50,020 nt of DNA. Origin: an uncultured Chloroflexota bacterium (GTDB lineage Bacteria > Chloroflexota > Anaerolineae > Anaerolineales > Villigracilaceae). Every line of letters starts with the position of its first letter. The first letter of the stretch is position 1. The notes under the pieces are model-generated. The model was not told where the DNA came from. It saw only the letters and a list, made by a program, of their open reading frames with translations, and did not search any database. Positions 11,296 through 48,238 of the stretch are shown here, piece after piece. Location: contig CAIWRB010000374.1 of the NCBI GenBank assembly GCA_903914955.1, positions 1 through 50,020 of the forward strand, given 5' to 3'. Position numbers and translations under genes: made by a program.

Positions 11296-11313
11296 TTTTC
11301 CTCGTTTGTACGA

Positions 11314-12318: not shown

Positions 12319-12326
12319 AGGCGCTG

Positions 12327-12332
12327 ATTGTA
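12327..12332 (-). promoter_or_regulatory. Putative -10 box, leaderless spacing (UPF0104 gene)
   Basis: TACAAT on the minus strand ends 8 bases before the ATG at 12318. No Shine-Dalgarno sequence is present. The -35 region is weak (TCATCA at 17 bases). Confidence 0.45.
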
Positions 12333-12378
12333 CCAAAGGAAAGGATGAGTGATGAAATGAGTGCCGAAATCATTCGGA

Positions 12379-12384
12379 TATAAT
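12379..12384 (+). promoter_or_regulatory. Putative -10 box of the YitT-family gene
   Basis: TATAAT lies 34 bases before the ATG at 12419. The leader includes AAGGA 7 bases before the start, so this gene looks conventionally led, unlike its divergent neighbour. No good -35 is visible. Confidence 0.4.
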
Positions 12385-12418
12385 GATTTGAGCGTTGAAA
12401 AAATAAAAAGGATTTTTT

Positions 12419-32815: not shown

Positions 32816-32836
32816 AAAATATTACGGAAGACCGTC

Positions 32837-32871
32837 GTCTCCCGTTGTTGGATTTTCCAAAGTCAGGAGAC
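32837..32871. repeat. Inverted repeat between the two plsC-type genes
   Basis: GTCTCC and GGAGAC pair around an inner TTGGA/TCCAA stem. The hairpin occupies the 57-base gap and ends 2 bases from the stop of the upstream plsC-type gene, so it may end or attenuate that transcript. Confidence 0.45.
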
Positions 32872-32872
32872 T

Positions 32873-33568
32873 TCAGACTCCGATATAGAGAGCCTGCCCC
32901 GCATAGACTCCGTGATATTCCTCTGGCAGAAGGCCTGCGATATGACGCATCACCAGGTCTGAATTCTTCTGACGAGTTTCCCTGCGCTCTGCGCCTTTCT
33001 CGAGAATGGGAGGAAAAATTATCGGTTTACCGATACGCACTTCCAACGGCGGCTTTTCTCCATGTGTGGCGCGCTGCCAGAAATCATCAGTTGTCCCAAC
33101 CAAGCCGACAGGGATAACCGGAACTTGCGCGTGCTCAACAATATAACCAACACCCGGCATGGCACGCCGCATGGCAAGTTGATGGGAACGTCCGCCTTCC
33201 GGGGCAATGACAAGCGGGCGGCCTGACTTTAAGATCGCCATGATCTTATCAAGCAGGAATCGATCATAATCACCGCGATGAACTGGGATGACTCCATACA
33301 TGGATAGGATGGTGCCCAGACCCTTTTTCTCAAACACATCCGCCGCGCCGATCACTTCGGGCTCTTCAGGCCAAAAAGAAACCGCCAGCGGAGGATCAAA
33401 GATGGAAATATGATTCATGGCGATCACATACGGTTTGCCAAGCGGAACATTTTCCTTCCCGCTGACCTTTACGCGACCTAATATTCGGAACAGCAGGTTA
33501 ATGCCGGGACGTAAAAAGAGTCGATTCAATTGGATGTGCGGGGGAATATTGTAACTTTTTGTCGGCAT
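32873..33568 (-). CDS. plsC: PlsC-type lysophospholipid acyltransferase
   Basis: A 231-residue acyltransferase with HX4D at His53-Asp58 (MNHISIFD), the acceptor motif IAPEGGRS and the downstream VIPVGLVGT strand. It presumably makes phosphatidic acid or a related lipid at the inner membrane face. It follows cmk by 48 bases, and cmk-plsC order is common in bacteria, so this copy is the likelier housekeeping PlsC. The ATG at 33568 is chosen over a TTG at 33586; only a weak GAGAA lies upstream. Confidence 0.9.
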   Translation of the reverse strand: MPTKSYNIPPHIQLNRLFLRPGINLLFRILGRVKVSGKENVPLGKPYVIAMNHISIFDPPLAVSFWPEEPEVIGAADVFEKKGLGTILSMYGVIPVHRGDYDRFLLDKIMAILKSGRPLVIAPEGGRSHQLAMRRAMPGVGYIVEHAQVPVIPVGLVGTTDDFWQRATHGEKPPLEVRIGKPIIFPPILEKGAERRETRQKNSDLVMRHIAGLLPEEYHGVYAGQALYIGV

Positions 33569-33616
33569 AATTTTCTCAATAAACAATACTCTTTTGACTG
33601 CTTTTTCGTCATGCCT

Positions 33617-34300
33617 CTATTTGCACAACGCAAGCACCTGGTCAAAGACTTGATCGGCATCCATTTTATCCGAGTCGATGATGATGGCGTCTTCAGCCGG
33701 TCGCAACGGCGCAACCGCTCGCGTAGAATCGATGTGGTCACGCTCGATCACTTTTCGTAGAATTTCGTCGTAGTCAGATCTCTCGCCGCGCGCAATGATT
33801 TCATCGTATCTGCGTTTGGCGCGTTCCTCGGCGCTCGCATCCAAATATATTTTTATGTCTGCTTCCGGCAGAACGACCGTGCCAATGTCGCGGCCGACCA
33901 TCACAACCCGGCCGCGCAGCCCAATGCGGCGCTGCTGCTCAGACAATGCCTGACGAACTCCGGCATACGCGGAGACCACAGACACATTCGCATCTACATT
34001 TCCATCGCGCATTTCCCAGGTGACATCTTTTTCAGCGATCACAACATCACAGGCTCGGCCATCTTTTTTTGATGGCGGACGAATATCTATTTGCGCTGTT
34101 TGAGCCAATTCAGTGACAGTAGATTCATCACGAAGGTCAAGCTGACGTTGAAGCGCGATCCAGGTGATGGCGCGGTACATGATGCCAGTATCAAAGAAAA
34201 GGTAACCAAGCGAGTCCGCGAGTCTTAACCCAAGTGTAGATTTACCCGACGCGGCGGGACCATCCAGAGCGATGATTGAGGGATGAGAATTTATTGTCAT
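33617..34300 (-). CDS. cmk: Cytidylate kinase
   Basis: A 227-residue nucleoside monophosphate kinase that converts CMP/dCMP to the diphosphates. The P-loop GPAASGKST is at 14-22, FDTGIMYRA and the family VGRDIGTVVLPEA follow, and the lid carries RRYDEI and ERDHIDSTRAVAPL. It starts 3 bases after the stop of a GT-C membrane protein gene, so translation is probably coupled to it. The call is very secure. Confidence 0.95.
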   Translation of the reverse strand: MTINSHPSIIALDGPAASGKSTLGLRLADSLGYLFFDTGIMYRAITWIALQRQLDLRDESTVTELAQTAQIDIRPPSKKDGRACDVVIAEKDVTWEMRDGNVDANVSVVSAYAGVRQALSEQQRRIGLRGRVVMVGRDIGTVVLPEADIKIYLDASAEERAKRRYDEIIARGERSDYDEILRKVIERDHIDSTRAVAPLRPAEDAIIIDSDKMDADQVFDQVLALCK

Positions 34301-34303
34301 TTT

Positions 34304-36031
34304 TTACGGAACAGCATTGGGCGCAGAGTCGAGGAACATATCATCGCGAGCCCAAAGAATGATGGTCTCACCAGATTGAGGTGCATCACGCAAACTGACC
34401 CAACGCACCCAGCTCTGGGATAATGTGTCATTCCATAATGGCGTTTGCCGCCAAGTAAAATCCTGTCCACGATACGAAGAGGCGAGTGTTGGATCATCTT
34501 GAAGGGGCGTAATGACAAAATACGGAGAGCTGGAAATATCCAATGATTCAACGACAGTTAATGGATGCTCGCGAAGAGCCCACTCAAGCGCTGGAGAATT
34601 CACGCCCGCAATGACGACAGGCGCTGAATAGTCATTACCAAGTTCCCATTCGGAGATATCACTCACCGTTGAGCGGAGAAGTTCGGCTTGCGCGGGAAGG
34701 TTTGCAGACCACCATAATTCGGGATGTTCTAGTCCGCGCAGGCCTGCGGAGCCAAGCGCGCCGCCAAGCCCAAAGATGCCCAGTACGATGGCCAATCCCA
34801 AGACGCCGCCTATTCGCGCTGTGCGGATCGACCAACCCGACGCCACAAGCAGGATACTGAACACGAGCAGGAGAACGGCGCCAAGCAAAAGCCAAAAGCG
34901 CATGTAGTATTCCTGTGAGGCAACCTGCACCCAGACGATCTTTGAAAAATCGAGCCACGAAAATGCCCAGACAAATGCCGTTAAGAGCATAACACCAGCT
35001 ACTTCGATACGCTCATCCGGAAAAATATCGATGTTGCGGACGAGTTCCAGCGCGGCCAGTGCGCTGAGTGGAATGAGCATCCACGCCAGATCACTGAGTT
35101 GGCGCGAGGGAATAAAGACCGCGAGCAGTAGTGAAACCAATAACCACAGGCTTAGTGGAATGATCCTGGAGCTCGCATTCCGCCAGCCGCGAATAATGGC
35201 AATCAATGCCAGCAACAAGGTGAGTGGTTGATAAACAAGCAGCGAAACAAATAATCTACTGGCGGGGATGGTTGAAGAAGTTAGCCAGCCGTTTATAAAT
35301 GTTGGGATTGAAGCCAGCGTGGCGCTTAATCCGTTGGGGACGATGAAAAAGAGGGTGCCGGCGGTAATAAAGGTGATTGCAAAAGAGAATATCGAATTTC
35401 GAAAGTCAAAGGGGGCAGGCTGCGCGTGAAGTTCCGTTTCTACGGATTCGTCATTGGATTGATTGCTTGGCTTGAGTCGAATTTCAATGGCTTGATATAA
35501 CGTCCACGTGACCCCGAGTCCGAGCAGACCAGCCCAGATCGATGGTCCACTGAGGAGCGCGAGCGCGGCGAAAAATCCCGCAAGACGCGGCTTGTTCTGG
35601 CTAAAAAATCCCCAAGTGAAAAGAAGGAATGTGATCGCAAAGATGGGACTGGCTGCCTGACGGGATAGGGAGATCAAGCCCGGGTCTACGGCAATGAAGA
35701 AGGCCAGGATCAGGCTCGGGCGCGGTTTGATGCGTGTCAAAAAAAGAGGAGCAAGCACCAGCAAGCATCCTGTCAAAGCGGGGATAAATCTCGCGAGGAA
35801 ATTAGTCCCACCGCCGTATAGGAAAAACAGGATCGAGGTGGAAAGAATATAAAAGGGATGCGGACTGAGTGCAGGCTTGAGGCTTTGCGCGATGTGCAAG
35901 GCTTGCAAGGCGGGCAAGGCTTCGGCGTCGGCGAGAGGCATTGCGCCGAGTTGGATGAAACGCAAGCCAAAGGCGAGCAGAAAAGCCAGCGCATACAGCC
36001 AGCCTTCATGTTTGAAATGTCGGTAGGTCAT
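34304..36031 (-). CDS. GT-C membrane glycosyltransferase-like protein (TIGR03663/ArnT-like)
   Basis: A 575-residue protein with about a dozen membrane helices and a soluble C-terminal part (about 470-575). Its N-terminus aligns with TIGR03663/PMT-like transferases: LRFIQLGAMPLADAEA corresponds to the loop where an acidic DE pair is usual, then SPHPFYI and NFLARFIPALTG. The usual DE and HGP motifs are changed here to AE and HPF, so activity is uncertain. TIGR03663 members are known to occur beside YYY-family proteins, as here. TACAAT lies 7 bases before the ATG. It is followed by cmk after 3 bases. Confidence 0.72.
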   Translation of the reverse strand: MTYRHFKHEGWLYALAFLLAFGLRFIQLGAMPLADAEALPALQALHIAQSLKPALSPHPFYILSTSILFFLYGGGTNFLARFIPALTGCLLVLAPLFLTRIKPRPSLILAFFIAVDPGLISLSRQAASPIFAITFLLFTWGFFSQNKPRLAGFFAALALLSGPSIWAGLLGLGVTWTLYQAIEIRLKPSNQSNDESVETELHAQPAPFDFRNSIFSFAITFITAGTLFFIVPNGLSATLASIPTFINGWLTSSTIPASRLFVSLLVYQPLTLLLALIAIIRGWRNASSRIIPLSLWLLVSLLLAVFIPSRQLSDLAWMLIPLSALAALELVRNIDIFPDERIEVAGVMLLTAFVWAFSWLDFSKIVWVQVASQEYYMRFWLLLGAVLLLVFSILLVASGWSIRTARIGGVLGLAIVLGIFGLGGALGSAGLRGLEHPELWWSANLPAQAELLRSTVSDISEWELGNDYSAPVVIAGVNSPALEWALREHPLTVVESLDISSSPYFVITPLQDDPTLASSYRGQDFTWRQTPLWNDTLSQSWVRWVSLRDAPQSGETIILWARDDMFLDSAPNAVP

Positions 36032-36038
36032 GTGGGCA

Positions 36039-36044
36039 ATTGTA
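36039..36044 (-). promoter_or_regulatory. Putative -10 box, leaderless spacing (GT-C gene)
   Basis: TACAAT on the minus strand ends 7 bases before the ATG at 36031, and no ribosome site lies between. It is just downstream of the hairpin repeat at 36053-36085, which would separate this transcript from the YYY gene. Confidence 0.5.
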
Positions 36045-36052
36045 ATCCATCA

Positions 36053-36085
36053 AGACCTTAGAGTTCTTAAAGAACTCTGAGGTCT
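36053..36085. repeat. 16-1-16 palindromic hairpin between two glycosylation genes
   Basis: AGACCTTAGAGTTCTT pairs with AAGAACTCTGAGGTCT (one G-T) around a single A. It matches the architecture and the AGGTCT/AAGACC ends of the hairpin at 27493-27525. No T-run follows. It may be a dispersed repeat acting as a transcript boundary. Confidence 0.6.
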
Positions 36086-36095
36086 GCCAATAAAA

Positions 36096-38543
36096 TCACG
36101 GCACTTCATAAATCACCGTGCTTCCCTGCTGAAAAATGGGCTTGAGGTGAGACTGGAATTTCTCTTCATTAACTTGCAGGGCTGATCGTTCGAGATTGCC
36201 GATATAAACATAGCGAATATTATATTTTGCGATGATGGTTTGCGCTTCGTCCCAGTGGGTTGTGCCGTAGAGTTTTGTTATATCCTCGCTACGGGAGGCT
36301 TGCGGCGCGTAACTACCGCGCCATTGCGCCTCGTGACCGGTCCAGCCAAGAACGGTTTGCAACCCTGTGTACATGGAGATGCGCGCATAAGCAGAGTAAC
36401 CGCCACCTATGGCTTCGGAGATGATCCCATCCGGAACCGTCTGAAGAAATTTTATGGCAGCGGCTTCATCGGGATTCTCGCGGAGAATTCGGTCAAAGTC
36501 GTCGAGAGTGAATCCTCCCAAAGGATTAAAGTTATTCGTCTTTGTGATCAGGCCAAAGACAGGGAATAGTAATCCTGAAAAAATAACAAAACCGATCACG
36601 ACTCGAAAAATAATATTTATCATGCCGCGCAGTTTTTGAAGCAACTGCGCAACTGCGAAAGCGGCGGCCAGACTCCACAACATCCATGCTTGATAGTAGA
36701 ACTTAAAGACCGTGTTAATTCGATAGCCAAATTGGTCACGCAGATAAACAAAATCGGGGACGAGAATGAGGATGGCACCGAGGGTGAGGAGAAGCAGGAT
36801 GAATTGAGTGGGAAGAACAGAAGTCGTAAGGTTGTCTTCGGTCTGCTGTCTATCAGCCATAGCAGAAGAATCTTTAAATAGGAAGGCTAGGGACGGAATC
36901 AAAACTGCCAGCAACGTAATAAGGCTTCCAATATAACCTAATCTACGCAAGGATGTTGCGATAACGAATTGACCGGTGGTCATATCTTGCGATTTAAGAA
37001 AATTTATGACAAAATCTTTTTCAACAAAAGAACCAACCCAGCCAATGGAGAATGTGAGTAGAAATAGAGCAAAAGTAAAACCAAGCCCAAGTGAAAAGCC
37101 AAGCTTCCAATTTGAGGGTATTTTTTCGCCGCGCCATAAATAGATCAAATATACAAAGATGGGAACGAGAAGCGTTCCCCACATCACCCATAAATGTACA
37201 CCGCGCGTGGGATACATGAAGTTGGGCAAGAGACCACCTGCTTGAGATGAGAAGCCGAGATAGAACGGAAAATATAACAAAATCGAAAGAATACCGAGCG
37301 GCAAGCCAAGCAGAAAAACATCTTCAAGGCGCGCCCAACTCCAGCCAGCTTCATTCGCACGCCAGAGAATATACGAAGCAACGATCAATGCTGCCGCGAT
37401 GAGAATGTCCCATGTGTTGAGGAAGGCCAGTCCACCAATGACCAGCGCGGAAAATAAAAAGCCCTGAATGTTGATATGTAATTTTGCGCCAAGCAAATTG
37501 ATCGTTCCGCGAAAACCTCCGAAGAGCAGATTCATTGCGACGGAGATGGCGAGCAATCCAAATGGAATTGCAAGCAGATGCGGATGCAAGTCACCAAGCA
37601 GAAAAGAGAAGAACGGGAACTCATCGATCACTTCCAACGGATTATTACGCATGTCGTAATCCTGGAGGACGCGCGAGGAACGCCACCACCAAAAGTAACG
37701 GTCAAGTGGAATCCAATGAAGTGGGGTTGCGGGCGGCTGGGATAATTCTTTCATATCCAACCAGGCCCACAAGCGGCTGGAATATTCACCGGTTACAGAA
37801 TCTTTCGCCCAGAACAATCCGCCCTGATGCAGGACCTCAAGCATCGCACCGAAGTTTGAGACAAACAGCAGGAAGAGCGGGGCGAGGAGGGAGTTTCCAA
37901 TTTTCGATTTTTTATCTTCGATTTCCAATTTGGAAAGCAGATTATATAAAATACCATACGAACCGAGCGCGCCAAGAGAGAAGATGAGCGAGGTCATCAG
38001 GTTGTGCGCCATGCTGCCAGCGATGCCAGAGACGCGCGCAAGCATGGCAGTCATAACGTAGCCGAAGTAATAATACGAAATGGCATAACCGGAGAGCCAC
38101 GGATCCTGTGGGGGAAAAGTTGGGGAGCGCAGGATGCCGTTAATAAAAGCCAATTCCATCGGCTTTTCGGTGCTGGCTAATTCAGGATTGGCAGAGCGAA
38201 CGAAGGCAAGAAATGCAAATGCAAGAAAAAATAAAATTTCAGTTGTTAGAATCAGGGAGATATTAGATTTGAGAAAATCAATAATGGCTGAACGATGACT
38301 GATAATTAACCAAACACATAATCCAATAATAAAGGCGAGGGCGAGCAAAATTCCGCCAAGATCATTTTGCGCGATACCAAGAGAGGCCAACAGCCAGAAG
38401 ATATATCCCCAGATCAGCAGACCTGCAGCACGTGACAAGGTATAACCTCTATCCGCCAGCGCGGGAAAAAGAGTATACGCTAATGGAAAAATCAGCCAGC
38501 CGAGAATACTTATGATGAAATACCAGGAGAAGAATGCGGTCAT
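36096..38543 (-). CDS. Chlor_Arch_YYY (DUF2298) polytopic membrane protein
   Basis: An 815-residue, very hydrophobic protein with about 15-18 membrane helices. It carries the family motif YYYFG at 157-161 preceded by FPPQDPW, then EFPFFSFLLGDLHPHLLAIP, LNTWD, RINTVFKFYYQAWML and the C-terminal TGLQTVLGWTGHEAQWRG and YNIRYVYIGNLE. Each block recurs in the C-terminal half of the 1642-residue protein upstream. The family is described mostly from Chloroflexi and Archaea and has no known function. The loop Asp/His residues could be catalytic in a GT-C-like enzyme (inference). It starts after TATAAC at 9 bases. Confidence 0.85.
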   Translation of the reverse strand: MTAFFSWYFIISILGWLIFPLAYTLFPALADRGYTLSRAAGLLIWGYIFWLLASLGIAQNDLGGILLALAFIIGLCVWLIISHRSAIIDFLKSNISLILTTEILFFLAFAFLAFVRSANPELASTEKPMELAFINGILRSPTFPPQDPWLSGYAISYYYFGYVMTAMLARVSGIAGSMAHNLMTSLIFSLGALGSYGILYNLLSKLEIEDKKSKIGNSLLAPLFLLFVSNFGAMLEVLHQGGLFWAKDSVTGEYSSRLWAWLDMKELSQPPATPLHWIPLDRYFWWWRSSRVLQDYDMRNNPLEVIDEFPFFSFLLGDLHPHLLAIPFGLLAISVAMNLLFGGFRGTINLLGAKLHINIQGFLFSALVIGGLAFLNTWDILIAAALIVASYILWRANEAGWSWARLEDVFLLGLPLGILSILLYFPFYLGFSSQAGGLLPNFMYPTRGVHLWVMWGTLLVPIFVYLIYLWRGEKIPSNWKLGFSLGLGFTFALFLLTFSIGWVGSFVEKDFVINFLKSQDMTTGQFVIATSLRRLGYIGSLITLLAVLIPSLAFLFKDSSAMADRQQTEDNLTTSVLPTQFILLLLTLGAILILVPDFVYLRDQFGYRINTVFKFYYQAWMLWSLAAAFAVAQLLQKLRGMINIIFRVVIGFVIFSGLLFPVFGLITKTNNFNPLGGFTLDDFDRILRENPDEAAAIKFLQTVPDGIISEAIGGGYSAYARISMYTGLQTVLGWTGHEAQWRGSYAPQASRSEDITKLYGTTHWDEAQTIIAKYNIRYVYIGNLERSALQVNEEKFQSHLKPIFQQGSTVIYEVP

Positions 38544-38552
38544 TGATGTCCA

Positions 38553-38558
38553 GTTATA
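38553..38558 (-). promoter_or_regulatory. Putative -10 box, short leader (YYY gene)
   Basis: TATAAC on the minus strand ends 9 bases before the ATG at 38543, with no ribosome site. It is a weaker example of the leaderless arrangement. Confidence 0.35.
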
Positions 38559-38576
38559 AGATAGCGGAAGGCGGAT

Positions 38577-39179
38577 TTAGGATAATTGTTTGACCATGCG
38601 ATGATAGCCAAGAAATTCGTTTGAATGCTGTATTGTTTCAACGATCTGATATCCAAGACGTTGATATAAACGCAGCGCATTTTGATTATAAAGACCAACC
38701 ACCAAGGCACACTTCGTCAAGACTGCTGACTGGGCGGATCGTTCGGCGTACGCAAGCAATCGCGAGCCGATACCCTGCCCCTGCGCAGAGGAATGAACGC
38801 CGACATTGCTGACATAATACTCGTCACGCTCGGCTTCCCGTCCGCCGGGCAGCCAATATCCGCGCCAGAGAAAACGTAAAGCGGGCATCATGTCCATTGC
38901 AGGAAAAAGATGCGGAAGCACAGCCAGGTTAAGTTTATCAAGCCGAGCACCTTCACACGAAACCAAACCGCCTACTGGCTTGTCATCCGCTTCTGCAACA
39001 AAAGCGATTCCAGAATCAAACCGGCCGGCGTTGTGAGCGACAAGATTTTTTATGATCGTGAGGACAGGCTGGCGATTATCTTTAAAAAGATAATCAGCCA
39101 GCTTGCCCATCGAAAGGTACATTATTTCCGCGATGAACGCGGAATCATTTTGGCAGGCGGGGCGGATATTAAAACTCAT
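38577..39179 (-). CDS. GNAT-family N-acetyltransferase
   Basis: A 200-residue acetyltransferase. The acetyl-CoA loop is VHSSAQGQGIGSRLLAYAE and the C-terminal LVVGLYNQNALRLYQRLGY is typical. The acceptor is unknown. The ATG at 39179 is fixed by a 4-base ATGA overlap with the DUF952 gene stop. This gene and DUF952 form a coupled pair inserted between two YYY-family genes, which may or may not reflect a shared task. Confidence 0.9.
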   Translation of the reverse strand: MSFNIRPACQNDSAFIAEIMYLSMGKLADYLFKDNRQPVLTIIKNLVAHNAGRFDSGIAFVAEADDKPVGGLVSCEGARLDKLNLAVLPHLFPAMDMMPALRFLWRGYWLPGGREAERDEYYVSNVGVHSSAQGQGIGSRLLAYAERSAQSAVLTKCALVVGLYNQNALRLYQRLGYQIVETIQHSNEFLGYHRMVKQLS

Positions 39180-39529
39180 TCGGGTAGAGAATGCCATTCG
39201 CCGTCAGAGTCAGGTTCGAAATTTAAAACTGATTCGACTGCGGTTAAATTGATGGGACCAAAGATATGCGGAAATTTATCGGATTCAGAAATGCCCGGGG
39301 CAGGCATTCCTGCGGGCGGTTCCCACTTAAGCTCAGGCTTGAGTTTTGTTTCATCGAGCTTTAACAACACCAGATCATTTCGTCCGCGATAAAAAGCGTT
39401 CGCAACATGCAAGACTTGCGGTTCAGTGGAGCAATGAATGAAGCCTTCGGTTTGTAAACTTGGCGCACTGTATTCGCCGCGCCCTTGAGCTTCAAGCCAT
39501 TCCTGTTTTGAAGTAATATGCAAAATCAA
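39176..39529 (-). CDS. DUF952 domain protein
   Basis: A 117-residue cytoplasmic protein matching DUF952 over its full length: EGFIHCSTEPQVLHVAN, LVLLKLDETKL, WEPPAGM and FPHIFGPINL. Members resemble a small mono-ADP-ribosyltransferase-like fold in some classifications, but no activity is established. It starts with TTG preceded by AAGGAG at 6 bases; no ATG fits. An 11-bp hairpin lies directly upstream of that ribosome site. The stop overlaps the GNAT start. Confidence 0.85.
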   Translation of the reverse strand: MILHITSKQEWLEAQGRGEYSAPSLQTEGFIHCSTEPQVLHVANAFYRGRNDLVLLKLDETKLKPELKWEPPAGMPAPGISESDKFPHIFGPINLTAVESVLNFEPDSDGEWHSLPE

Positions 39530-39539
39530 AATTATCTCC

Positions 39540-39568
39540 TTACCAATTACTGTTCACGTAATTGGTAA
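39540..39568 (-). promoter_or_regulatory. 11-bp inverted repeat abutting the DUF952 ribosome site
   Basis: TTACCAATTAC and its exact complement surround a 7-base loop. On the minus strand the second arm ends in GGTAA, immediately before GGAG of the DUF952 gene. It could be a weak terminator of the YYY fusion gene, an operator or a structure that affects translation. Confidence 0.5.
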
Positions 39569-39575
39569 TTATATT

Positions 39576-42500
39576 CTACGGGATGACTTCATAAATAACT
39601 GTATCGCCGTAACGATAGACTTCCTTCCAAAGAACGCCATTGAATTCATCAAATTTCAGCAGTCCACTGGGGACTCCCTGGTCAAACACCGCATATTTGA
39701 CAAGCTCCAATTGTCCAACAACAATATAGCGCACATTGTATTTGCGTAAGAAATTCACCGCCGCGGTTTGATCTGGAGAAGTATAGAAGCTATCCACATC
39801 CACACCACGTTGGATGATCTGGTTTGACCCCAAGGCGCGTTGCTGTTGTTGATGATATTGCCAGCCAACCACGCTCGGCAGACCTGTATAAGTGGTAATG
39901 CGGGAATGCCATCGGTACTGAACACCAGCCGGAGCGGCTTCGACAATTACTGGCGAGCCTTCAATATTTTCCTGCATCCAGCGGATCGCGTGATAATCCT
40001 CTTCAAAAGAGAAATCGCGTCCATAATCTGCATAGGAGGAATATTGCATGTAGGTCATACTGTCGAGCGTGTGCGGCGCAGAGGGTGTCATGCGGTCGCT
40101 GATCTTGTCGGGGGTTGCGGTGAGGGTGAAAAGTAAAGCGCCCGTGGCCAGCGCATAAAGCCCGACTTGATAAATTGTGCGCCAGCGGATTCTCCAAAAT
40201 GGAAATATATTTAACAGCCAGCCAAATGCCGCGGCCGCACTGACAGCCAGCAGCATCCAGGCTTGTAAATATAATTTAAAGACCGTGTTCATACGTCCAA
40301 TATCACCGACCAGCACAACAACTTCAACAGCGATGGTGAGTACAAGTGCTGTGCCGATCATCATCAACACACCGCGTTTGACATCGGGCAGATCCGGGCG
40401 CAGGAGCAGAATCCCAGCCCAGGCTGCCAGAGGCAATGCCAGCCAGCCAATGCGAACACCTTCCACCGCAAAGTATGCCAGCAAAGCGATAATCACCGCA
40501 AGCCCAATTTCGATCGGCAGGGAATAATCACGCAGTTTCTGTAAATGCGAAACCGGTGTGGATTCCATCCACTCACGCGTTTCCCAGGCAAGCCATGCCA
40601 CAATAATAAAGAGGAACAAGCCCCATTGCGTGACATACGAAGAGATCGGTGTGTGCGAACCTCTCCATGGGTCTACTGCGCCATAGCTGAGGCTGTACCA
40701 ATGTGTGAACGGTGAATACAAAGCAGAGCTGAGTATATACAGGAAAGCCACCGCACCCACGGCAATCACTGCGCGCAGGAGCCAACTCACATCCCCAGCC
40801 CCTCCCCTTTGGGAAAGGGCCAAGGGTAAGGATTTTAGATCAAAATTACGATACAACGTATAAGCCAACGCAATCGCCGCCAACGGAAAGTAAGTATATA
40901 GATCCCAGGTATTCGTCGGCTTGAGCGCACCGATCATCAATGCGCCGATGCCGAATGTCGCGGCCCATTCCGAACGACTCATTTCTGCACGTGATTTTAT
41001 AAATGATACCGCCCACGCAATAATGAACAATGTGATCGGCATAACAAGCATGTGCGCGTGCATATCGCTGTACAGGAAAGTAAACAAAGGGAATTCCGTG
41101 ATCGGTTCCACATCATTCGGCGCGGGAATTACTCGGCTGGGATTCCAGTACCAGTCTCCCCGGCCAATCGGCAGCTGCATCCCGCCGAACGACAGATACA
41201 ATCCTTTGGCGGCAAATATCCATTTTTGGATGATGTTCGCGTCCGCTGGAACCAATCCATCTGGCGCGGCGATTCTTTGGAATCCATTGAAGATCATCCG
41301 CACCGTTCCAAGGTTGCCCAAGAGAATGGTCATGACCGAAGCGGACAGGCCAGAGATCCACGCGGAAGACTGAATGTTGGAAGCTGAATCTTTATCCGTT
41401 TTAACAAGTGAAAACGCAACCGTGAATGCGCCGACCGCGATCAACGCAAACCACGTCGGCAAAATAAGGTTGTACGCGATCGAAGGCACAATGCCAAGCA
41501 ATTTCACCGGCGTGCCAGCCAGCACAAAACCGTAATAGTAATAATTAATATAACCGCCCGCGTACCACGGATCATACGGCGGAAAAGAAGTACTCTTCAA
41601 CACCGCGTTGAAATACGAAAAATCCATCGGCCGCTCGCCGCCTTTTGCGGGATGCCACAGATCCGCATTGCCGAGTCGAATGAACAAATCGATCAGGAAG
41701 AAGACGAGAAACAGGATCTCGACCATGACGAAGAATCTGCGGTTTGAATTCCACTCCGCTTTGAACTGGTCTCTGCGAATCATCCACAAGCTGACACCTG
41801 CCGCAGCAATAAGGACAAACACCACGCTGATGGTGACTCGCGTATATGGTACGCCGACAGATCCGTCCATCCACGCGATCCATGCTAGCAAAGCCAGCCC
41901 TACAATTCGTCCAAGCGGATATGAATATTGGCCAAGTCCTGGCAAAGCCAAACGTGTGATCGGATAAGCAAACAGTCCCAACACAAAAATAAATCCATAC
42001 CAAAACAAAATGCCGAAAATTGGGTATTTATTTTGAAGCCAATTGTAATTAAATAACTGAGACCATGTTCCGCCAGCGGTTTGTTGCGCAAGGCGAGTAT
42101 CGGGAAGCATCAGATCTTTGTAATTATTGGCCTGCTTCGGCAGGAGATGAACAACGTTCGTTAAATCCACAGTGCCAAGCTGCGCGAGTACTTTCGCCGG
42201 TTCATAATCGTCAGTCTTCTGGAAAATCATCACTTTTGGATGATCGTAGAATGTGAAGGCTTCTTCCGCGGCTTGATCGTTGATCACCAGCGGCCCAAGA
42301 GTAGGATACGATTCAAAGACCGCCACCAGCTTAAATCCCAATCTGCCTTCATATTGGCCGGGTTTGGCAAGGCGGTAGCACTTGATTATATTTTCATTTT
42401 CCGGGCAACCGAGCAGATCGCGATAATACTTTGTCGTCAGCGGATATCTTTCAGGCAGCCGCGTGATCTGCGCATACTGGTGATTGGTCGGGATGAAAAT

Positions 42501-44504
42501 ATAATCGGCCTGATTAAGCGTATTTTGCAAGAGGGTCAGTTTGTCTGCGTTATCGTCCCAATAAACCTGCAAATTCAGATCGCCGCGATACAATCCGCCA
42601 AAGGGATCGTATCCATCAAGGCGGAAGGGCAGACCCCAGTCATAATCTGTCTCATTGGCGAAGGATGCGCCGGAAAGAGTCAGGTTTTGCGTGCCGAAAG
42701 TTTCTAACATCAACGTGTATGTCGCATTCGTCGAGACAGGCACAGGCTCAGCAAAAGTGAATAAAATTTGCGGGCCGCGCGGGTCTTTTGAATCAGGCGC
42801 ATAGAGTTTGGCGGATGCACTCGCAAATATCTGTCCGGGATCATCGACAGCGGCAATAGACAGATCGAGTCTGACTGCTGATGTTGAAAGATCGGTAGCG
42901 TGAGCAAGAATTACGCCGGTCAACACGCCATCTTGTTTCGGCGCGATCACGGTAGTATACGGAACTCCAGGTTGAACAAACCCGCTATTCGGGAATGAAA
43001 TGGGCTGCGAGATGACGTTTCCATCACTTGTGCGAATCTGCAAATTGATCGGACCCGGCACATTCTCATAGATCCAACGCGAAGCGGCCATGCGGGTCTC
43101 GTCTCGCAGATAAATGCTCTGGAACGCGAAAGCCCAGATTGCGGTCAACACTAGAACTGTAACGCCGATACTGCCGGCCAATATAGTTGGAAGATTTAAA
43201 CGTTTTAGCTTTCCAACCTGCCAACCTGCCAACTCAAAAATGAACCATGCTGCCATCATGCACAGCAACGGATAGACCGGCAGTTGATAGCGCATGGTCG
43301 GGTTGAATTGCATGGATTGCCAGCCAAAATAAAACGCGGTCCAGCCCCATAGCAATAAGTGACGCCATTCACCTTTGAGTATCCTCCAGCCCATGAGCAG
43401 GAATCCAGCCCAAGCGAGAATACCAAGCGGAAGCCCCAACCCCCAAACGGTTAAATTGATGAACGAATACAAATGCGTGCGCCGCGCCCATTGTAAATTC
43501 CACGGCAGGTCGGATTCTCCGGTAGCCTGAAGACGCTGTTCACTGATATTCGCGACCCAATGCGGGTCGAGTCCCAATCCATTGAATGCATAAGGCTGGA
43601 AAATGCGGAAGGATATGATCGTCATCAATCCGCCGGCGATCAAAAACAAACTGATCATTAACCAGTAATCAGTATTCTGTTTTTTGTTTTCATCGTACAA
43701 AAAATAACGGACAATGAAAGCCCCCGGCAGCATGACCGCCAACACCGCCGCGTTGATCTTGGAAGCCATCGCCATGCCCAGGGCAAAGCCGAAACCAATG
43801 CTGAGCCAGAAAAGCGGAGAGCGCAGGAACTTGGTAAGCAGTGATCGAAAATCAGGCGGGTCTTCCAAACCTTCTACTCCCTGATTCTTTATTCCTAATT
43901 CCTTTTGATTTATTATCCCCACCGCAAAATAAAGCGTCAGGAACATAAATACATTGACAAACAGATCCGAAGTAAAAAAGTGTGATTGCTGGATCTGCAT
44001 CACCGCAAACGATGAGAACGTCGCGGCGATCAAACCTATCCGCCGCCCGTATAGATTTGAAACAATAAGATAAAGTAAAAATATGGTGAAGAGATCAGCC
44101 AAAGCGGAGAATTGTCTCGCGAAGAATTTCGATTGACCAATATCTTCATTGTTGGTCAACTCGATGGCGGAACGCACCAAGGTCAGCGGCAGATCGCCAT
44201 ACACATATGAAGCATTTCCTCGATTGTATGGGTTGAGCGTGGATGTGGCAGAGTCAAAATATTCTCCTGGTGTTATCCAACGCTTTAGTTCCGGCGGGCA
44301 GGCATCCACAGGGATGAGCGGATCTTCACAGGAATGAGCGCGTAAATTATCCAGCACGCCCGTCATGAATAATTCATCCGGATGCTGGTGATATCCTTCC
44401 CCCCATTTCGCACCACCCAAGCGCAAATAACCCGCCATCAGCAGGACAAGAATAAAAAGCAGGTCATAAACCCAGTCGCGTTTTTTGATTTTTGAATTTT
44501 CCAT
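39576..44504 (-). CDS. Giant GT-C transferase fused to a Chlor_Arch_YYY domain
   Basis: A 1642-residue membrane protein. The N-terminal third resembles PMT/ArnT-type GT-C transferases: a helix at 12-28, then HPDE at 41-44 supplying the acidic pair that binds metal and sugar donor. A soluble beta-rich region (about 490-720) precedes the YYY half, which has GGERPMDFSYF, FPPYDPW, YYYYG at 988-992, EFPLFTFLYSDMHAHMLVMP, NTWDLY, RMNTVFKLYLQAWML and TGLPSVVGWQYHQQQQR. Such fusions unite both modules in one chain, suggesting they act together in glycan transfer (inference). Residues about 1224-1239 are encoded by an inserted palindromic repeat. No ribosome site is visible. Confidence 0.85.
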   Translation of the reverse strand: MENSKIKKRDWVYDLLFILVLLMAGYLRLGGAKWGEGYHQHPDELFMTGVLDNLRAHSCEDPLIPVDACPPELKRWITPGEYFDSATSTLNPYNRGNASYVYGDLPLTLVRSAIELTNNEDIGQSKFFARQFSALADLFTIFLLYLIVSNLYGRRIGLIAATFSSFAVMQIQQSHFFTSDLFVNVFMFLTLYFAVGIINQKELGIKNQGVEGLEDPPDFRSLLTKFLRSPLFWLSIGFGFALGMAMASKINAAVLAVMLPGAFIVRYFLYDENKKQNTDYWLMISLFLIAGGLMTIISFRIFQPYAFNGLGLDPHWVANISEQRLQATGESDLPWNLQWARRTHLYSFINLTVWGLGLPLGILAWAGFLLMGWRILKGEWRHLLLWGWTAFYFGWQSMQFNPTMRYQLPVYPLLCMMAAWFIFELAGWQVGKLKRLNLPTILAGSIGVTVLVLTAIWAFAFQSIYLRDETRMAASRWIYENVPGPINLQIRTSDGNVISQPISFPNSGFVQPGVPYTTVIAPKQDGVLTGVILAHATDLSTSAVRLDLSIAAVDDPGQIFASASAKLYAPDSKDPRGPQILFTFAEPVPVSTNATYTLMLETFGTQNLTLSGASFANETDYDWGLPFRLDGYDPFGGLYRGDLNLQVYWDDNADKLTLLQNTLNQADYIFIPTNHQYAQITRLPERYPLTTKYYRDLLGCPENENIIKCYRLAKPGQYEGRLGFKLVAVFESYPTLGPLVINDQAAEEAFTFYDHPKVMIFQKTDDYEPAKVLAQLGTVDLTNVVHLLPKQANNYKDLMLPDTRLAQQTAGGTWSQLFNYNWLQNKYPIFGILFWYGFIFVLGLFAYPITRLALPGLGQYSYPLGRIVGLALLAWIAWMDGSVGVPYTRVTISVVFVLIAAAGVSLWMIRRDQFKAEWNSNRRFFVMVEILFLVFFLIDLFIRLGNADLWHPAKGGERPMDFSYFNAVLKSTSFPPYDPWYAGGYINYYYYGFVLAGTPVKLLGIVPSIAYNLILPTWFALIAVGAFTVAFSLVKTDKDSASNIQSSAWISGLSASVMTILLGNLGTVRMIFNGFQRIAAPDGLVPADANIIQKWIFAAKGLYLSFGGMQLPIGRGDWYWNPSRVIPAPNDVEPITEFPLFTFLYSDMHAHMLVMPITLFIIAWAVSFIKSRAEMSRSEWAATFGIGALMIGALKPTNTWDLYTYFPLAAIALAYTLYRNFDLKSLPLALSQRGGAGDVSWLLRAVIAVGAVAFLYILSSALYSPFTHWYSLSYGAVDPWRGSHTPISSYVTQWGLFLFIIVAWLAWETREWMESTPVSHLQKLRDYSLPIEIGLAVIIALLAYFAVEGVRIGWLALPLAAWAGILLLRPDLPDVKRGVLMMIGTALVLTIAVEVVVLVGDIGRMNTVFKLYLQAWMLLAVSAAAAFGWLLNIFPFWRIRWRTIYQVGLYALATGALLFTLTATPDKISDRMTPSAPHTLDSMTYMQYSSYADYGRDFSFEEDYHAIRWMQENIEGSPVIVEAAPAGVQYRWHSRITTYTGLPSVVGWQYHQQQQRALGSNQIIQRGVDVDSFYTSPDQTAAVNFLRKYNVRYIVVGQLELVKYAVFDQGVPSGLLKFDEFNGVLWKEVYRYGDTVIYEVIP
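40786..40834. repeat. CCCCTCCCC-type palindromic repeat inside the YYY fusion gene
   Basis: CCCCTCCCCTTT-GGGAAAGGG and flanking CCTT/AAGG arms form an imperfect palindrome within the coding sequence. It keeps the frame and encodes SLPLALSQRGGAGD in a loop between two membrane helices. It resembles a dispersed intergenic repeat and the remnant at 13304-13342. Confidence 0.6.
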
Positions 44505-44525
44505 AATTATTTTTTGGAGGCAAAA

Positions 44526-46694
44526 CTATTTTTCGACCATAAGGATCATAAAGTCTTTACCTTCAAGCGGTGAAGTATAGCGGGTCAACACACCATTCGG
44601 ATAGAGTACTTTAAGAGCCTTCTCAGTTTCCAGATCATCATAACGGAAGATAAACATCTTCGGAGCGGATACATTCACTGTCTCAGTAAAATTCTCAGGC
44701 CAGAGCGCAAAATCACGGTTCGGAATGCCAGCCCATACCCCAGGCAAACGCGTATCCACCCAATATGGAAATGGCACGATCCAAACAGAATCCGTCTGCC
44801 CATATTTATCGCGGAACTTACTGATATACCTTCCCATGTCAGAACTATTCCACGCGCCCGCCCTGAAATTCTTATCGAACTTATTGAAAACAAGATCAAA
44901 ATTTTGAAAAGCGGAGGCAGCGAATAAAAATCCCACCAAACCAAAGGAGATGAATTTCCGCCTCATACTTCGTGATTCGGCGAGGCTTGTCACCAGCCCT
45001 TCAAGAGCCAACGCGCTGACGATGACCGCCGCTATAGCTCCACCGCCTGCACGGTTCAACGCAGGGTTTTCACCTGGAAATGCCAGAGAAAGGATGGATG
45101 GCATTAATAAGGTAGGAATGGAAACCAGCAGTAACATATCACGCCAATCGCGCCCGCGCACGTAACGTGCAACCAGCAAAACAATTCCGATCATGAACAA
45201 CGCACCGGTTACCACATCCAACGCAGGGCGGTGAGGTAATGAGTTCACCCAGATCTCACCGTCATCCCAGTTAAACATCAAAAGGCCGCGATACAAATTC
45301 GACAGGAAAATCTTCCACGCCGGCCCTGGCAGAGCGGTCTCTACAGAAGTTAAGCGGGTCAATGCGCGGTATCCAAACTGTTCCGGATTTGAAATCCAAT
45401 AACGCAGGAGGGGAATAAAGACAAAGAGGGAAGTCATAACGATAATGGAGAACCAGCCCAAGACATTTTCACCCTTCCTGCCTGACCTGTTGTATAACAT
45501 GTAAACAATGAAGGCGATCACTACAAGAATGGGCATAATGCGGAAAGGACTATACCCGTGCAAGCCGAGTCCGAGGAAAATGCCGCAGAGGATAAAATCG
45601 TTCCGGTTACGAGTGCGCAGACCGCGGATCAGGTACAGAAGCGTAGGCGCGACGAAGAGTGGATATAAAGGGAATCGCAGTCCAATGCGTGAGATCACGT
45701 TCGGCCAGTACGCGACCCCAAACAGAAAAAGCGCGAAGAGCCCGACGCGTTCGTTCCCATATTCTTTTCCGAGCAGATAAATATAGGGAAGAGTCAGAAT
45801 GCCGAGCAAAGCCGTGCCAAGTTTAAGACTCAAATAGGAAAGACCCGTACCAAAAACATTGGCGACCAGTAATGTCCAGTACATTTGAATGGCTTCACGG
45901 CCCGTGTTGCGCGGGAAGTATACGCTGTAATCACCCCGCGAAATATCGAATACATCCAGAATTTTTTCGGCATGGTCACTGAACGGCTCAGCGGGTATAG
46001 ACTGCGTACGATAAAGGCGAAAGAAAATCGTAATTCCAAAAACTGCGATGACAAGCAAATTCCACAGGATCTTATTCCTGCGCGCTTCCGTGCTTAATTC
46101 TTCCTTTGCGATCTTTGGATGTTTTATCCAGAGCGCATAAGATAGAGACGCAAGTGATGCCACCCAAAAGCTAATGTTAACGAGAGTGAATTTCCCGCCG
46201 CCAAAGGCCCAGAAGGTGAATAAAGCGAGGAGAATTGAAAGTATGAATGGAATGATGAGCGCGGTCTGGGAATCGTATGTTTGTCTAAAAAGAGGAAGAT
46301 TGGGCAAATGCCACTCATCATTGAGATATGCCCAGATGACAAACCCCAGCGCGAAGACATACAATGCAATGCCCATGGATACCAGGCGGTTTGGCGGCTC
46401 GAGTATTAACTGCGCGCTGAGGGCAAGAAAAAGCCCCAGCGTCGACCTCCATGGGAAATAAGAAACACGCGCAGGTTCTTGCGGGCTTTGTTCCTCACTC
46501 ACATGCGAAGCCACTTCATCTGCAAGAGTTTGATTGAGTTCAGCACGACGGCGCGCATCCCACAGTGCCCGGATGAAATTAAAGAATGAAATCCAATCTC
46601 TGGTAACAGATTTGTACAGATCAAGAACTGTGGGTTCCTGCTGAGATTCTTCATTTTTTAATTCGGGAATTTGAAATTGGGAATCGTTGTTCAT
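44526..46694 (-). CDS. GT39/PMT-like GT-C membrane glycosyltransferase
   Basis: A 722-residue protein. A cytoplasmic N-terminus (about 1-85) is followed by about 14 membrane helices and a soluble C-terminus (about 620-722). The first large loop PAEPFSDHAEKILDVFDI carries the acidic residue and NTGREAIQMYWTLL continues as in ArnT/PMT-type transferases, which use polyprenyl-phosphate sugars outside the membrane. The sugar and acceptor are unknown. It starts 12 bases after a methyltransferase stop and ends 21 bases before the YYY fusion start, so all are likely in one operon. Confidence 0.8.
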   Translation of the reverse strand: MNNDSQFQIPELKNEESQQEPTVLDLYKSVTRDWISFFNFIRALWDARRRAELNQTLADEVASHVSEEQSPQEPARVSYFPWRSTLGLFLALSAQLILEPPNRLVSMGIALYVFALGFVIWAYLNDEWHLPNLPLFRQTYDSQTALIIPFILSILLALFTFWAFGGGKFTLVNISFWVASLASLSYALWIKHPKIAKEELSTEARRNKILWNLLVIAVFGITIFFRLYRTQSIPAEPFSDHAEKILDVFDISRGDYSVYFPRNTGREAIQMYWTLLVANVFGTGLSYLSLKLGTALLGILTLPYIYLLGKEYGNERVGLFALFLFGVAYWPNVISRIGLRFPLYPLFVAPTLLYLIRGLRTRNRNDFILCGIFLGLGLHGYSPFRIMPILVVIAFIVYMLYNRSGRKGENVLGWFSIIVMTSLFVFIPLLRYWISNPEQFGYRALTRLTSVETALPGPAWKIFLSNLYRGLLMFNWDDGEIWVNSLPHRPALDVVTGALFMIGIVLLVARYVRGRDWRDMLLLVSIPTLLMPSILSLAFPGENPALNRAGGGAIAAVIVSALALEGLVTSLAESRSMRRKFISFGLVGFLFAASAFQNFDLVFNKFDKNFRAGAWNSSDMGRYISKFRDKYGQTDSVWIVPFPYWVDTRLPGVWAGIPNRDFALWPENFTETVNVSAPKMFIFRYDDLETEKALKVLYPNGVLTRYTSPLEGKDFMILMVEK

Positions 46695-46706: not shown

Positions 46707-47420
46707 TTATTTCTTTTTTGCAATTACCAATATACTTTCGCCCCACGTCATCGGCAGGAATACGAAACCTGTGATGGCCTGAATCCCGCCAAGTGCACCG
46801 AAAAATAATTTCTGCAGTTTCTTCGGTACAAAGCGAATATATGGCACATCCCAAAAGCCATCTGAAAAAACACGTTCTAAATCAAAGCTTGCATTTTGGA
46901 TCAACGTGAGCCACTCAGCCGGTAGTTTCAATGAAATATGGGTTGGGTCTTGATAGCCGATCCACCTGTCACCCTTCCATGGTTTGAGCATGGATCCGAG
47001 ATTCGGCGTGGCAAAGATCAACGTTCCATTTTTCGCGGTAATGCGCCCGATCTCATTGATGGCTTTCTCGGGGTTCGGCAAATGCTCGACGATATGTTTG
47101 ATGATGACAACATTGAAAACACCGGCCTCAAACGGCAACTCCTGTGCGGAGGCAGTCTGCAGGGAGGAATGATTCACAACAGCCTTGGACTGGCTGACTG
47201 CCCAATGATTCAAATCCAGCCCGTACGTTTCAAACGTATCTTCAAGCTGGGCGACCAAATGCCCCATGCCTGATCCCACCTCAAGCAGACGCGCTCCGCG
47301 CCTGCCATATCGCCGCGCCAGTATGGCAAAGAATCGATTAGACCACCAATACATGCTATATTTGGCGAAAGTAATATTGGCGTAGGTGTGTGTGGAAAAA
47401 TATTTTTCGTCGAAAGACAT
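46707..47420 (-). CDS. Class I SAM-dependent methyltransferase
   Basis: A 237-residue methyltransferase with SAM motif I LLEVGSGMGHL, motif II-like YGLDLNHW and the post-I HIVEHLPNPEKAINEI, followed by a C-terminal hydrophobic hairpin (LFFGALGGIQAITGFVFLP) that may contact the membrane. This is the pattern of methyltransferases in surface-polysaccharide loci; the target is probably a lipid-linked glycan or sugar (inference). The ATG at 47420 is chosen because an upstream extension would overlap the preceding gene by 120 bases and lacks family features. No clear ribosome site is seen. Confidence 0.82.
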   Translation of the reverse strand: MSFDEKYFSTHTYANITFAKYSMYWWSNRFFAILARRYGRRGARLLEVGSGMGHLVAQLEDTFETYGLDLNHWAVSQSKAVVNHSSLQTASAQELPFEAGVFNVVIIKHIVEHLPNPEKAINEIGRITAKNGTLIFATPNLGSMLKPWKGDRWIGYQDPTHISLKLPAEWLTLIQNASFDLERVFSDGFWDVPYIRFVPKKLQKLFFGALGGIQAITGFVFLPMTWGESILVIAKKK

Positions 47421-47467
47421 GGGGAAGAGATCAGTAAACAGGTTAGAGTAATTACGGAAACATGCGC

Positions 47468-48238
47468 TTATTTCTTGCGGGCAATATAAAACGTAAATGT
47501 ACCATTTGCAATTGGTTCGGGCGAGGAGAATTTCTTTACAAATTTTTTCGTGAGGGCTAAATTCCATTCGGTGCGCGAGATGATCCATTTACCTGTTAAC
47601 AAACGCACGACCACCGACGGGACGCCGAAATAATGTCCCCATTCTAACACGCGCATGGAGGCGGGCGAAAAATAATGCCACCAGCGCTCCAGTTTGAAAC
47701 CTGCCCTTTCCAGGCGTTCTTCCCACACATCAGGTTCGTCCGCATGAGAAACTCGGGAAATCTTGCGAAACCACTCTGTATACCCCTTTCCCAAAATCTT
47801 TGAAATGGATAATTCGCTTAAGTATCTCGTGTTTGGCACACAAAAATAGAACAGCGCATTGGGCTTTAACACACGCGCTGTTTCTTTCAACACCTCATCA
47901 ATATGAGGAATATGTTCCAAAACTGAATTGCTGAATCCGCTAGAGAAATGTCCGGAAGGGAAAGGCGTTCGCGCGCCATCGGCTTCCACCAATAATTTAT
48001 ATGCGCCAAATTTTTTCGCTTCGTGGATGGGAGCATGCCACGGGTCGAGTCCAACATCGAGTTTTTGATCGAATGTTAGAGAAGCAAAATGACCATCGCC
48101 GCAACCCACATCATAGACAGGCGCGGGCAAGGGCAGGTCTTGATAATATCCACTCTCTATCGCGCGCAAAAATGCGCGGAAGTAAGGCAGGTCACGAAGT
48201 TGTAAATACAGAAAATCTTTTGATTGACGATTGCTCAT
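47468..48238 (-). CDS. Class I SAM-dependent methyltransferase
   Basis: A 256-residue methyltransferase with motif I VYDVGCGDGHF, then VGLDPWHAPI and NSVLEHIPHIDEVL. The C-terminal part (about 160-256) is basic and aromatic-rich and may bind membrane or glycan. It overlaps the GT4 gene by 4 bases (ATGA), showing coupled translation and supporting a shared role in glycan decoration. It is only distantly similar to the next methyltransferase. Confidence 0.88.
   Translation of the reverse strand: MSNRQSKDFLYLQLRDLPYFRAFLRAIESGYYQDLPLPAPVYDVGCGDGHFASLTFDQKLDVGLDPWHAPIHEAKKFGAYKLLVEADGARTPFPSGHFSSGFSNSVLEHIPHIDEVLKETARVLKPNALFYFCVPNTRYLSELSISKILGKGYTEWFRKISRVSHADEPDVWEERLERAGFKLERWWHYFSPASMRVLEWGHYFGVPSVVVRLLTGKWIISRTEWNLALTKKFVKKFSSPEPIANGTFTFYIARKK

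Follow-up and report, generated by a model that had tools for sequence, protein, structure and literature searches.

The closest described relatives of the proteins considered here are GT-C glycosyltransferases: the oligosaccharyltransferases (OSTs) STT3, AglB and PglB, the PMT/ArnT-type enzymes and AftA. The OSTs belong to GT66, the PMT/ArnT type to GT39 and GT83, and AftA is an arabinofuranosyltransferase of GT85. Proteins of DUF2298 (PF10060), also modelled as Chlor_Arch_YYY (TIGR03662) and called YYY in the following, have no function assigned in the libraries searched. Two of them are encoded in the window, a stretch of 50,020 nucleotides from an uncultured Chloroflexota bacterium: one is a stand-alone protein, and the other is the C-terminal part of a fusion of 1642 amino acids (aa), behind an N-terminal module (N-module). 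The GT-C assignment of YYY is added here and is based on structure prediction. The open-access literature yielded no functional study under the name DUF2298, TIGR03662 or TIGR03663; DUF2298 is named there in passing only, and the names TIGR03662 and TIGR03663 were not found.

Extracytoplasmic glycosylation by three components, namely a polyprenyl-phosphate-sugar synthase, a flippase and a GT-C enzyme (GT136) acting on lipid-linked donors, is described in PMC11127046. Loop motifs of GT-C enzymes are known from the TMTCs (PMC7801869), and the OSTs have been reviewed (PMC7226087). In AfAglB, the reported metal ligands are Asp47, from the first DXD motif, and two residues of the second motif (Asp-His-His), namely Asp161 and His163 (PMC8342417).

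The locus resembles each of these systems in part. AftA gave the highest structural score for YYY, but the two share 12% identity and AftA was not among the PDB sequence matches of YYY. With STT3, AglB and PglB, YYY shares the predicted fold including the C-terminal domain, but neither a PF02516 (STT3) match nor the WWDYG motif. The YYY D-x-H motif stands ahead of a helix, as do D161 and H163 of AfAglB (PMC8342417), an equivalence without statistical support. PMT/ArnT-type enzymes are close to the N-module (Z ~25–27 and an HPDE loop motif), and a 722-aa protein of the locus matches PMT_2; the N-module differs in having extra beta-rich sequence and in being fused to YYY. The logic of the three-component system is the same, and a GT2 or a flippase-like relative of LPG_synthase_TM lies near YYY in some loci. 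The difference is that five GT-C modules are predicted in one operon of the window.

Predicted fold and candidate active site of YYY

By profile, both YYY copies are full-length members of DUF2298/TIGR03662. The stand-alone copy scored 471.0 bits with TIGR03662 (E 8.6e-141) and 343.5 bits with PF10060 (E 3.1e-102), the fused copy 482.5 bits (E 2.8e-144) and 379.8 bits (E 3e-113). Chance is excluded for this assignment because both copies exceed the curated cut-offs (300.25 bits for TIGR03662 and 27.8 bits for PF10060). The five loop motifs listed in the initial annotation (FPPxDPW, YYYxG, EFPxFxFLxxDxHxHxL, NTWD and RxNTVFKxYxQAWML) were present in both. A search of the YYY sequence against the PDB gave no credible match; six were listed, the best with E 0.12 (chemokine receptor).

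The stand-alone YYY was modelled with AlphaFold2 from 74 sequences (mean pLDDT 93.2, pTM 0.95). The model was compared with the PDB by Foldseek, and VIA-align served as a second look on the Foldseek candidates. GT-C enzymes filled ranks 1–11 in Foldseek, with E values from 1.7e-6 to 4.7e-3, among them AglB (1.7e-6), DPY19 (1.8e-6), PglB, AftA and ArnT; rank 12 was a pyrophosphatase with probability 0.30. In VIA-align, AftA came first (Z 16.0, root-mean-square deviation (rmsd) 5.0, 497 residues), followed by yeast STT3 (14.0), ALG12 (12.9), AglB (12.5), ArnT (12.1), DPY19 (11.8) and Pmt4 (11.6). Rows 1–46 of the 50 shown were of GT-C type (Z 16.0 to 6.4) and the next row had Z 5.9; the 46 include two rows of the isolated AglB C-terminal domain and three GPI transamidase chains, which we presume to be of GT-C type. 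Residues 684–815 of YYY matched 3vu0, a structure of the C-terminal domain alone from an archaeal OST, with Z 9.2 and rmsd 2.7 over 112 residues. In hhalign, this part of YYY matched three OSTs from a single Chloroflexota genome with E 2.5e-5 and probability 75, and the sequence profiles of YYY and the N-module matched each other with E 1.3e-4 and probability 53.5.

The comparison with GT-C folds had been proposed together with the initial annotation, and the predicted fold is indeed of this type. YYY is therefore probably a GT-C module itself. The annotated fusion of a glycosyltransferase to an unknown module stands as a fusion, while its unknown half is now predicted to be GT-C as well, so the 1642-aa protein would be GT-C + GT-C in tandem. 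Pfam may already place DUF2298 in a GT-C clan, which would lower the novelty of the assignment.

The N-module is the clearer GT-C of the two by its model (aa 1–827; pLDDT 93.7, pTM 0.91). It matched AglB (Z 28.1), ArnT (Z 26.6, rmsd 4.0) and Pmt4 (Z 25.6, rmsd 3.5). Its profile matched yeast Pmt1 in the PDB (E 1.1e-5) and, with E 1.1e-10, the same three Chloroflexota OSTs. In an alignment of 80 rows, D43 and E44 occurred in 78 of the 78 rows covering that site and R405 in 80/80.

The 722-aa GT39-like protein matched the N-module in hhalign (E 1.6e-16); its Asp240 was kept in 18/18 and its Glu243 in 17/18 sequences. The 575-aa protein had been labelled TIGR03663-like (Agl23). Its match to TIGR03663 is weak (28.1 bits, residues 15–331) and far below the cut-off of 126.25, and no Pfam match was found at E up to 0.1. 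This protein also matched the N-module (E 1e-8, probability 95.7); E37 was present in 15/15 sequences, and position 35 was D in 7/15 only. If the GT39-like and Agl23-like modules, which are based on profiles rather than models, are counted in, the four membrane-protein genes together would account for five GT-C modules.

Conservation was assessed in 195 YYY modules (109 stand-alone, 84 first fused and 2 second fused copies; 201 before identical sequences were dropped). The loop acids E126 (193/195), D or E at position 130 (193/195), D147 (189/195) and E308 (194/195) were near-invariant. The same was true of the D-x-H motif, with D318 in 193/195, H320 in 195/195 and H322 in 193/195, and of the basic region, where R608, N610, F613 and W620 were found in 195/195 and K614 in 194/195. 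A Bacillota homologue from a Pseudobutyrivibrio plasmid and one haloarchaeal homologue retained EKxxD, YYYxG, GDLHAH and RxNTxFK. The conservation of the loop Asp and His residues, the other check that had been proposed, is thus borne out both in the 195 sequences and in these two homologues.

In the model, helix 95–118 is followed by a loop with E126 and D/E130, and D318-L-H320 stands a short way ahead of helix 326–340. Two membrane passages would lie between the first loop and D318-L-H320; the membrane sides are read from the fold and the helix order, by which the first loop would be extracytoplasmic. This order of elements is similar to that of AfAglB, and in the three Chloroflexota OSTs a hydrophobic stretch likewise follows the motif YTDHH or YTDTH. 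By motif and helix order, D318-x-H320 is a candidate metal site. When the YYY insertion (residues 241–303) was cut out, D318 and H320 stood opposite D206 and H208 of the OST DHH motif (E 0.088, probability 0.65). K614 stood opposite R405 of the N-module in the weak alignment of the two profiles.

Several observations weigh against a GT-C assignment and active site of YYY. The Foldseek TM-scores were low (0.28–0.35, query-normalised, ranks 1–11) with rmsd values of 12.7–17.9 A, and the VIA-align rmsd was 4.5–8.3 A, the small C-terminal domain excepted. The tool cautions that the common arrangement of helical models can by itself give best Z values of ~14, and Z 16 is not far above this; the fold case therefore rests on the matches all being of one kind. 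The N-terminal half of YYY gave nothing significant in hhalign against OST, N-module or GT39-like profiles, with D-x-H not placed on a matching motif, and the whole-length profile had no match to the Agl23-like and GT39-like families. The alignment of D-x-H with the OST DHH motif is non-significant and needs removal of the insertion. The comparison with the N-module places D318 and H320 elsewhere, and the alignments of the trimmed YYY with the GT39-like and Agl23-like proteins leave them unaligned. As one alignment agrees non-significantly and another disagrees, the metal site is kept as a proposal. A GT-C fold alone is also no proof of catalysis.

Distribution and phylogeny

Of 399 Chloroflexota genomes sampled, 269 had a match to PF10060, which exceeded the cut-off in 266. 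By hand count, 26 of the 269 had one match and the others two to five; these copy numbers are lower bounds, with up to three candidates scored in most genomes. A search for relatives gave 573, of which the best 80 were kept; they came from Anaerolineae-type and other Chloroflexota, including records named Brevefilum, Ornatilinea (O. apprima) and Bellilinea (B. caldifistulae). Among 14 control genomes, PF10060 occurred in Haloferax volcanii and Methanosarcina acetivorans only.

The fusion is widespread in Chloroflexota and not peculiar to the genome of the window. It was present in 86 of 120 Chloroflexota YYY loci (the window included) and is therefore a standing feature of the phylum. Fusion and stand-alone YYY occurred together in 75 loci; the stand-alone gene lay downstream of the fusion in 75/75 same-strand pairs, within 1500 bp in 70. 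The 120 loci were chosen for holding YYY, many are short contigs, the YYY of L113 is partial, and some genomes apparently occur twice (e.g. L070/L073, L038/L078 and L046/L148). The locus counts are for these reasons descriptive.

Double-YYY fusions were seen in two families (f28 and f61), with 2498 aa in L051 (7497–14993) and 2681 aa in L061 (4290–12335). Each of these giants has one GT-C N-module and two YYY modules; in the tree, the two first copies pair up and so, separately, do the two second copies.

The tree comprised 95 Chloroflexota YYY modules (37 fused and 58 stand-alone, thinned from the 195 at 48% identity) and two outgroup sequences; it was built by a fast search in which SH-aLRT was the only branch support. 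The fused modules formed one clade (SH-aLRT 99), with two label changes compared with a mean of 29.6 for shuffled labels. This clade holds one stand-alone member, L112 (8321–13293), with no N-module found beside it. As L112 is nested in the fused clade without a neighbouring N-module, it looks like a secondary loss. A second stand-alone YYY adjoins it. Of the stand-alone modules, 55/58 fell into one group (SH-aLRT 92, inner order open), L064 on the fused side and L062 with an outgroup row; with four changes, the stand-alone modules do not make up a clean clade. The root is unsure because the two outgroup rows are long branches and do not group together. The split between fused and stand-alone YYY looks old from these sequences. 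Together with the frequent retention of both lines, this suggests distinct steps for the two forms.

One genome (G150, with L064 and L171) has two unfused YYY genes and a clear STT3 OST (E 9.2e-33). One of these two YYYs branches off basally to the fused clade, with support 80, and possibly represents the state before fusion.

Operon and genome setting

The features of the locus are listed in Table 1. Twelve minus-strand genes run from 49392 to 32099, with intergenic gaps of -22 to 64 bp. The order is GT4, two methyltransferases, GT39-like, 1642-aa fusion, DUF952, GNAT, stand-alone YYY, Agl23-like, cmk and two plsC. Because no gap exceeds 64 bp, the run from GT4 to the plsC-like pair is probably a single operon of this Anaerolineae-type Chloroflexota genome. 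The operon probably extends past the Agl23-like gene, via the cmk-like and the two plsC-like genes, to 32099; the names of the genes in 32099–34300 come from their sequence and are to be taken as presumptive.

The initial annotation had placed four membrane proteins in tandem. Their minus-strand open reading frames and coordinates were confirmed, but the DUF952 and GNAT genes separate the fusion from the stand-alone YYY. The GT4 and the two methyltransferase genes precede the membrane proteins as described, according to their family matches. The open reading frame of methyltransferase MT1 (46707–47588, 293 aa) is probably over-long, judging from close homologues that align from about residue 53–57 on, and the likely gene is the shorter form in Table 1. 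Elsewhere in the window, positions 18667–21114 hold an 815-aa open reading frame without a Pfam match at E 0.001.

Table 1. Features of the probable operon, in the order of its genes, with the modules and motifs of the membrane proteins
Feature	Position	Strand	Basis
GT4-type cytoplasmic glycosyltransferase, first gene of the operon	48235–49392	-	PF00534, E 9.7e-27
Class I methyltransferase MT2	47468–48238	-	PF08241, E 2.6e-14
Class I methyltransferase MT1, probable 237-aa form	46707–47420	-	PF13489, E 1.9e-16
GT39/PMT_2-like GT-C protein, 722 aa	44526–46694	-	PF13231, 41 bits, above the cut-off of 26.1
1642-aa fusion, two predicted GT-C modules	39576–44504	-	Open reading frame, family matches, structure comparison of modules
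Fusion N-module, aa 1–829, PMT/ArnT/OST-like GT-C with beta-rich part	42018–44504	-	Model of aa 1–827
HPDE motif of the N-module, aa 41–44, candidate catalytic acids of the first loop	44373–44384	-	Row conservation
YYY module of the fusion, aa 830–1642	39576–42017	-	TIGR03662 and PF10060
EFPLFTFLYSDMHAHML motif of the fused YYY, aa 1137–1153	41046–41096	-	Sequence
DUF952 protein	39176–39529	-	PF06108, E 2.2e-30
GNAT acetyltransferase	38577–39197	-	PF13508, E 3.4e-14
Stand-alone YYY (DUF2298/TIGR03662), 815 aa, predicted GT-C fold	36096–38543	-	Profiles and model
YYY first-loop EKPME motif, aa 126–130	38154–38168	-	Conservation in 195 modules
YYY FPPQDPW, aa 143–149	38097–38117	-	Conservation in 195 modules
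YYY YYYFG, aa 157–161	38061–38075	-	Sequence
YYY EFPFFSFLLGDLHPH, aa 308–322, candidate D-x-H metal site, closely followed by a helix	37578–37622	-	Conservation in 195 modules
YYY RINTVFKFYYQAWML, aa 608–622, candidate lipid-phosphate-binding basic residues	36678–36722	-	Conservation in 195 modules
YYY C-terminal globular domain, aa 684–815, archaeal AglB-like	36099–36494	-	3vu0, Z 9.2; hhalign
TIGR03663 (Agl23)-like protein, 575 aa, GT-C by profile comparison	34304–36031	-	TIGR03663, 28.1 bits, below cut-off
Probable cytidylate kinase gene (cmk)	33617–34300	-	Sequence; gap of 3 bp
Two PlsC-like acyltransferase genes, end of the probable operon	32873–33586, 32099–32815	-	Sequence; gaps

In 81 of the 120 loci, a stand-alone YYY had an Agl23-like gene at most 300 bp away. 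The GT4 family was present in 43 (the window counted), cmk-related genes in 42 and plsC-related genes in 22. A GT2 gene adjoins YYY at 32 bp in L060 and at 7 bp in L068; that of L060 is weakly similar to polyprenyl-phosphate-sugar synthases (best 48.6 bits, cut-off 325). A flippase-like protein (LPG_synthase_TM/TIGR00374) is encoded at 11314–12336 of the window, 23.8 kb from its YYY; 13 other loci have relatives of it no more than 5.4 kb from YYY. No GT2 synthase and no flippase-like gene was recognised inside the operon of the window. The Pseudobutyrivibrio homologue belongs to a polysaccharide gene cluster that also has genes for O-antigen ligase, glycosyltransferase and epimerase. Such neighbours fit a surface glycan pathway that is lipid-linked and extracytoplasmic.

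The genome of the window has 23 PMT_2 places and 19 GT2 places. Seven of its GT2 proteins were scanned, and four had AglJ as the best NCBIfam match, all below cut-off. At G000:C113 (~10121–12814) of this genome, PMT_2 is matched twice in an open frame of 1707 aa, possibly another double GT-C protein. A 472-aa frame (G000:C244, L204:790–2205) combines methyltransferase-like and AglJ-like GT2 parts, both below cut-offs. STT3 (PF02516) was above cut-off in 14 of 121 sampled Chloroflexota genomes, mostly marginally. Canonical N-glycosylation by STT3 was rejected for the genome of the window, where PF02516 had no match even at E 1.

Proposed function and alternatives

Taken as a whole, the data are explained best, and in our judgement rather probably, by YYY proteins as GT-C glycosyltransferases that use polyprenyl-phosphate sugars, with a bifunctional fusion and further steps carried out by neighbours. 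For enzyme activity of YYY as such, our confidence is considerable. A role in polyprenol-dependent surface glycosylation is likely. Each GT-C module would take a sugar from a polyprenyl-phosphate carrier at the outer face of the cytoplasmic membrane. In YYY, the active site would be lined by E126, D/E130 and D318-x-H320, which would probably coordinate a metal ion; K614 and R608 would bind the lipid phosphate. A bifunctional fusion with two active sites is plausible, and these would add sugars to the same extracytoplasmic glycan. The stand-alone YYY, GT39-like and Agl23-like proteins would supply further steps, and the GT4 and the methyltransferases would act on a lipid-linked precursor in the cytoplasm. 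Most likely, a glycan of the cell surface or of a glycoprotein is the product.

Alternatively, YYY could transfer glycans to protein in an OST-like or PMT-like manner, for example in the O-glycosylation of surface proteins and filaments. The best structural relatives include STT3, AglB, DPY19 and Pmt, and the C-terminal domain of YYY is AglB-like. Densities near Thr66 and Thr145 of a Chloroflexota archaellum were read as likely O-glycosylation (PMC12488501). By the features tested, the STT3 profile and WWDYG, YYY is not an OST: neither YYY protein matched PF02516 at E up to 0.1, and the sequon motif WWDYG is not in the 74-sequence YYY consensus, in which the corresponding region reads PVILEAxxxxYxxxxRVS. 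The best Z also belongs to AftA, whose acceptor is a glycan, and we consider protein glycosylation by YYY rather unlikely. That some of these proteins are flippases or handlers of the lipid carrier on a GT-C-like scaffold, rather than enzymes, seems improbable to us. Agl23 of Haloarcula hispanica suppressed a yeast rft1 deletion, and translocation of lipid-linked oligosaccharide in liposomes needed added Rft1 or Agl23 (PMC11182771); the frequent Agl23-like gene near the stand-alone YYY (81/120 loci) fits this. The 575-aa protein, however, is far under the Agl23 family cut-off, and the near-invariant acidic loop residues of YYY and the N-module are as expected of enzymes.

YYY might also be a catalytically dead GT-C relative that serves as a scaffold for its fused or neighbouring partner. 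The D/E variation at position 130 fits such a role, as do the second YYY copies of the double fusions, which have N at position 147 in 1/2 and Q at position 710 in 2/2. The invariant residues of the D-x-H motif and the basic region are, however, kept alike in fused and unfused copies. L112, a fused-clade YYY without an N-module beside it, counts for a scaffold, and L064, with two stand-alone YYY genes and no fusion, counts against it; overall we find this explanation very improbable. A table entry in a database paper (PMC12828279) assigns DUF2298 to the electron transport chain. Fold, motifs and neighbours favour glycosylation, and we give this assignment next to no credence.

A GT-C glycosyltransferase acting on polyprenyl-phosphate sugars remains our preferred reading of YYY. 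A fuller version is offered tentatively and at less than even confidence. YYY would found a new GT-C family, present in Chloroflexota, in part of the Bacillota and in Archaea; its D-x-H metal site would be like that of OSTs, but the sequon-binding motif would be missing. The Chloroflexota fusion, with two working active sites in one polypeptide, would assemble an extracytoplasmic disaccharide or repeat and stand at the core of a surface glycan pathway conserved in most of the phylum.

The GT-C superfamily itself is known; new would be a probable unassigned GT-C family and an unusual, widespread double-GT-C architecture. With a predicted fold, residues to mutate and a conserved operon, the uncharacterised DUF2298 family becomes testable. 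The polypeptide with two GT-C modules would be a useful model for the hand-over of glycans between active sites of extracytoplasmic glycosyltransferases.

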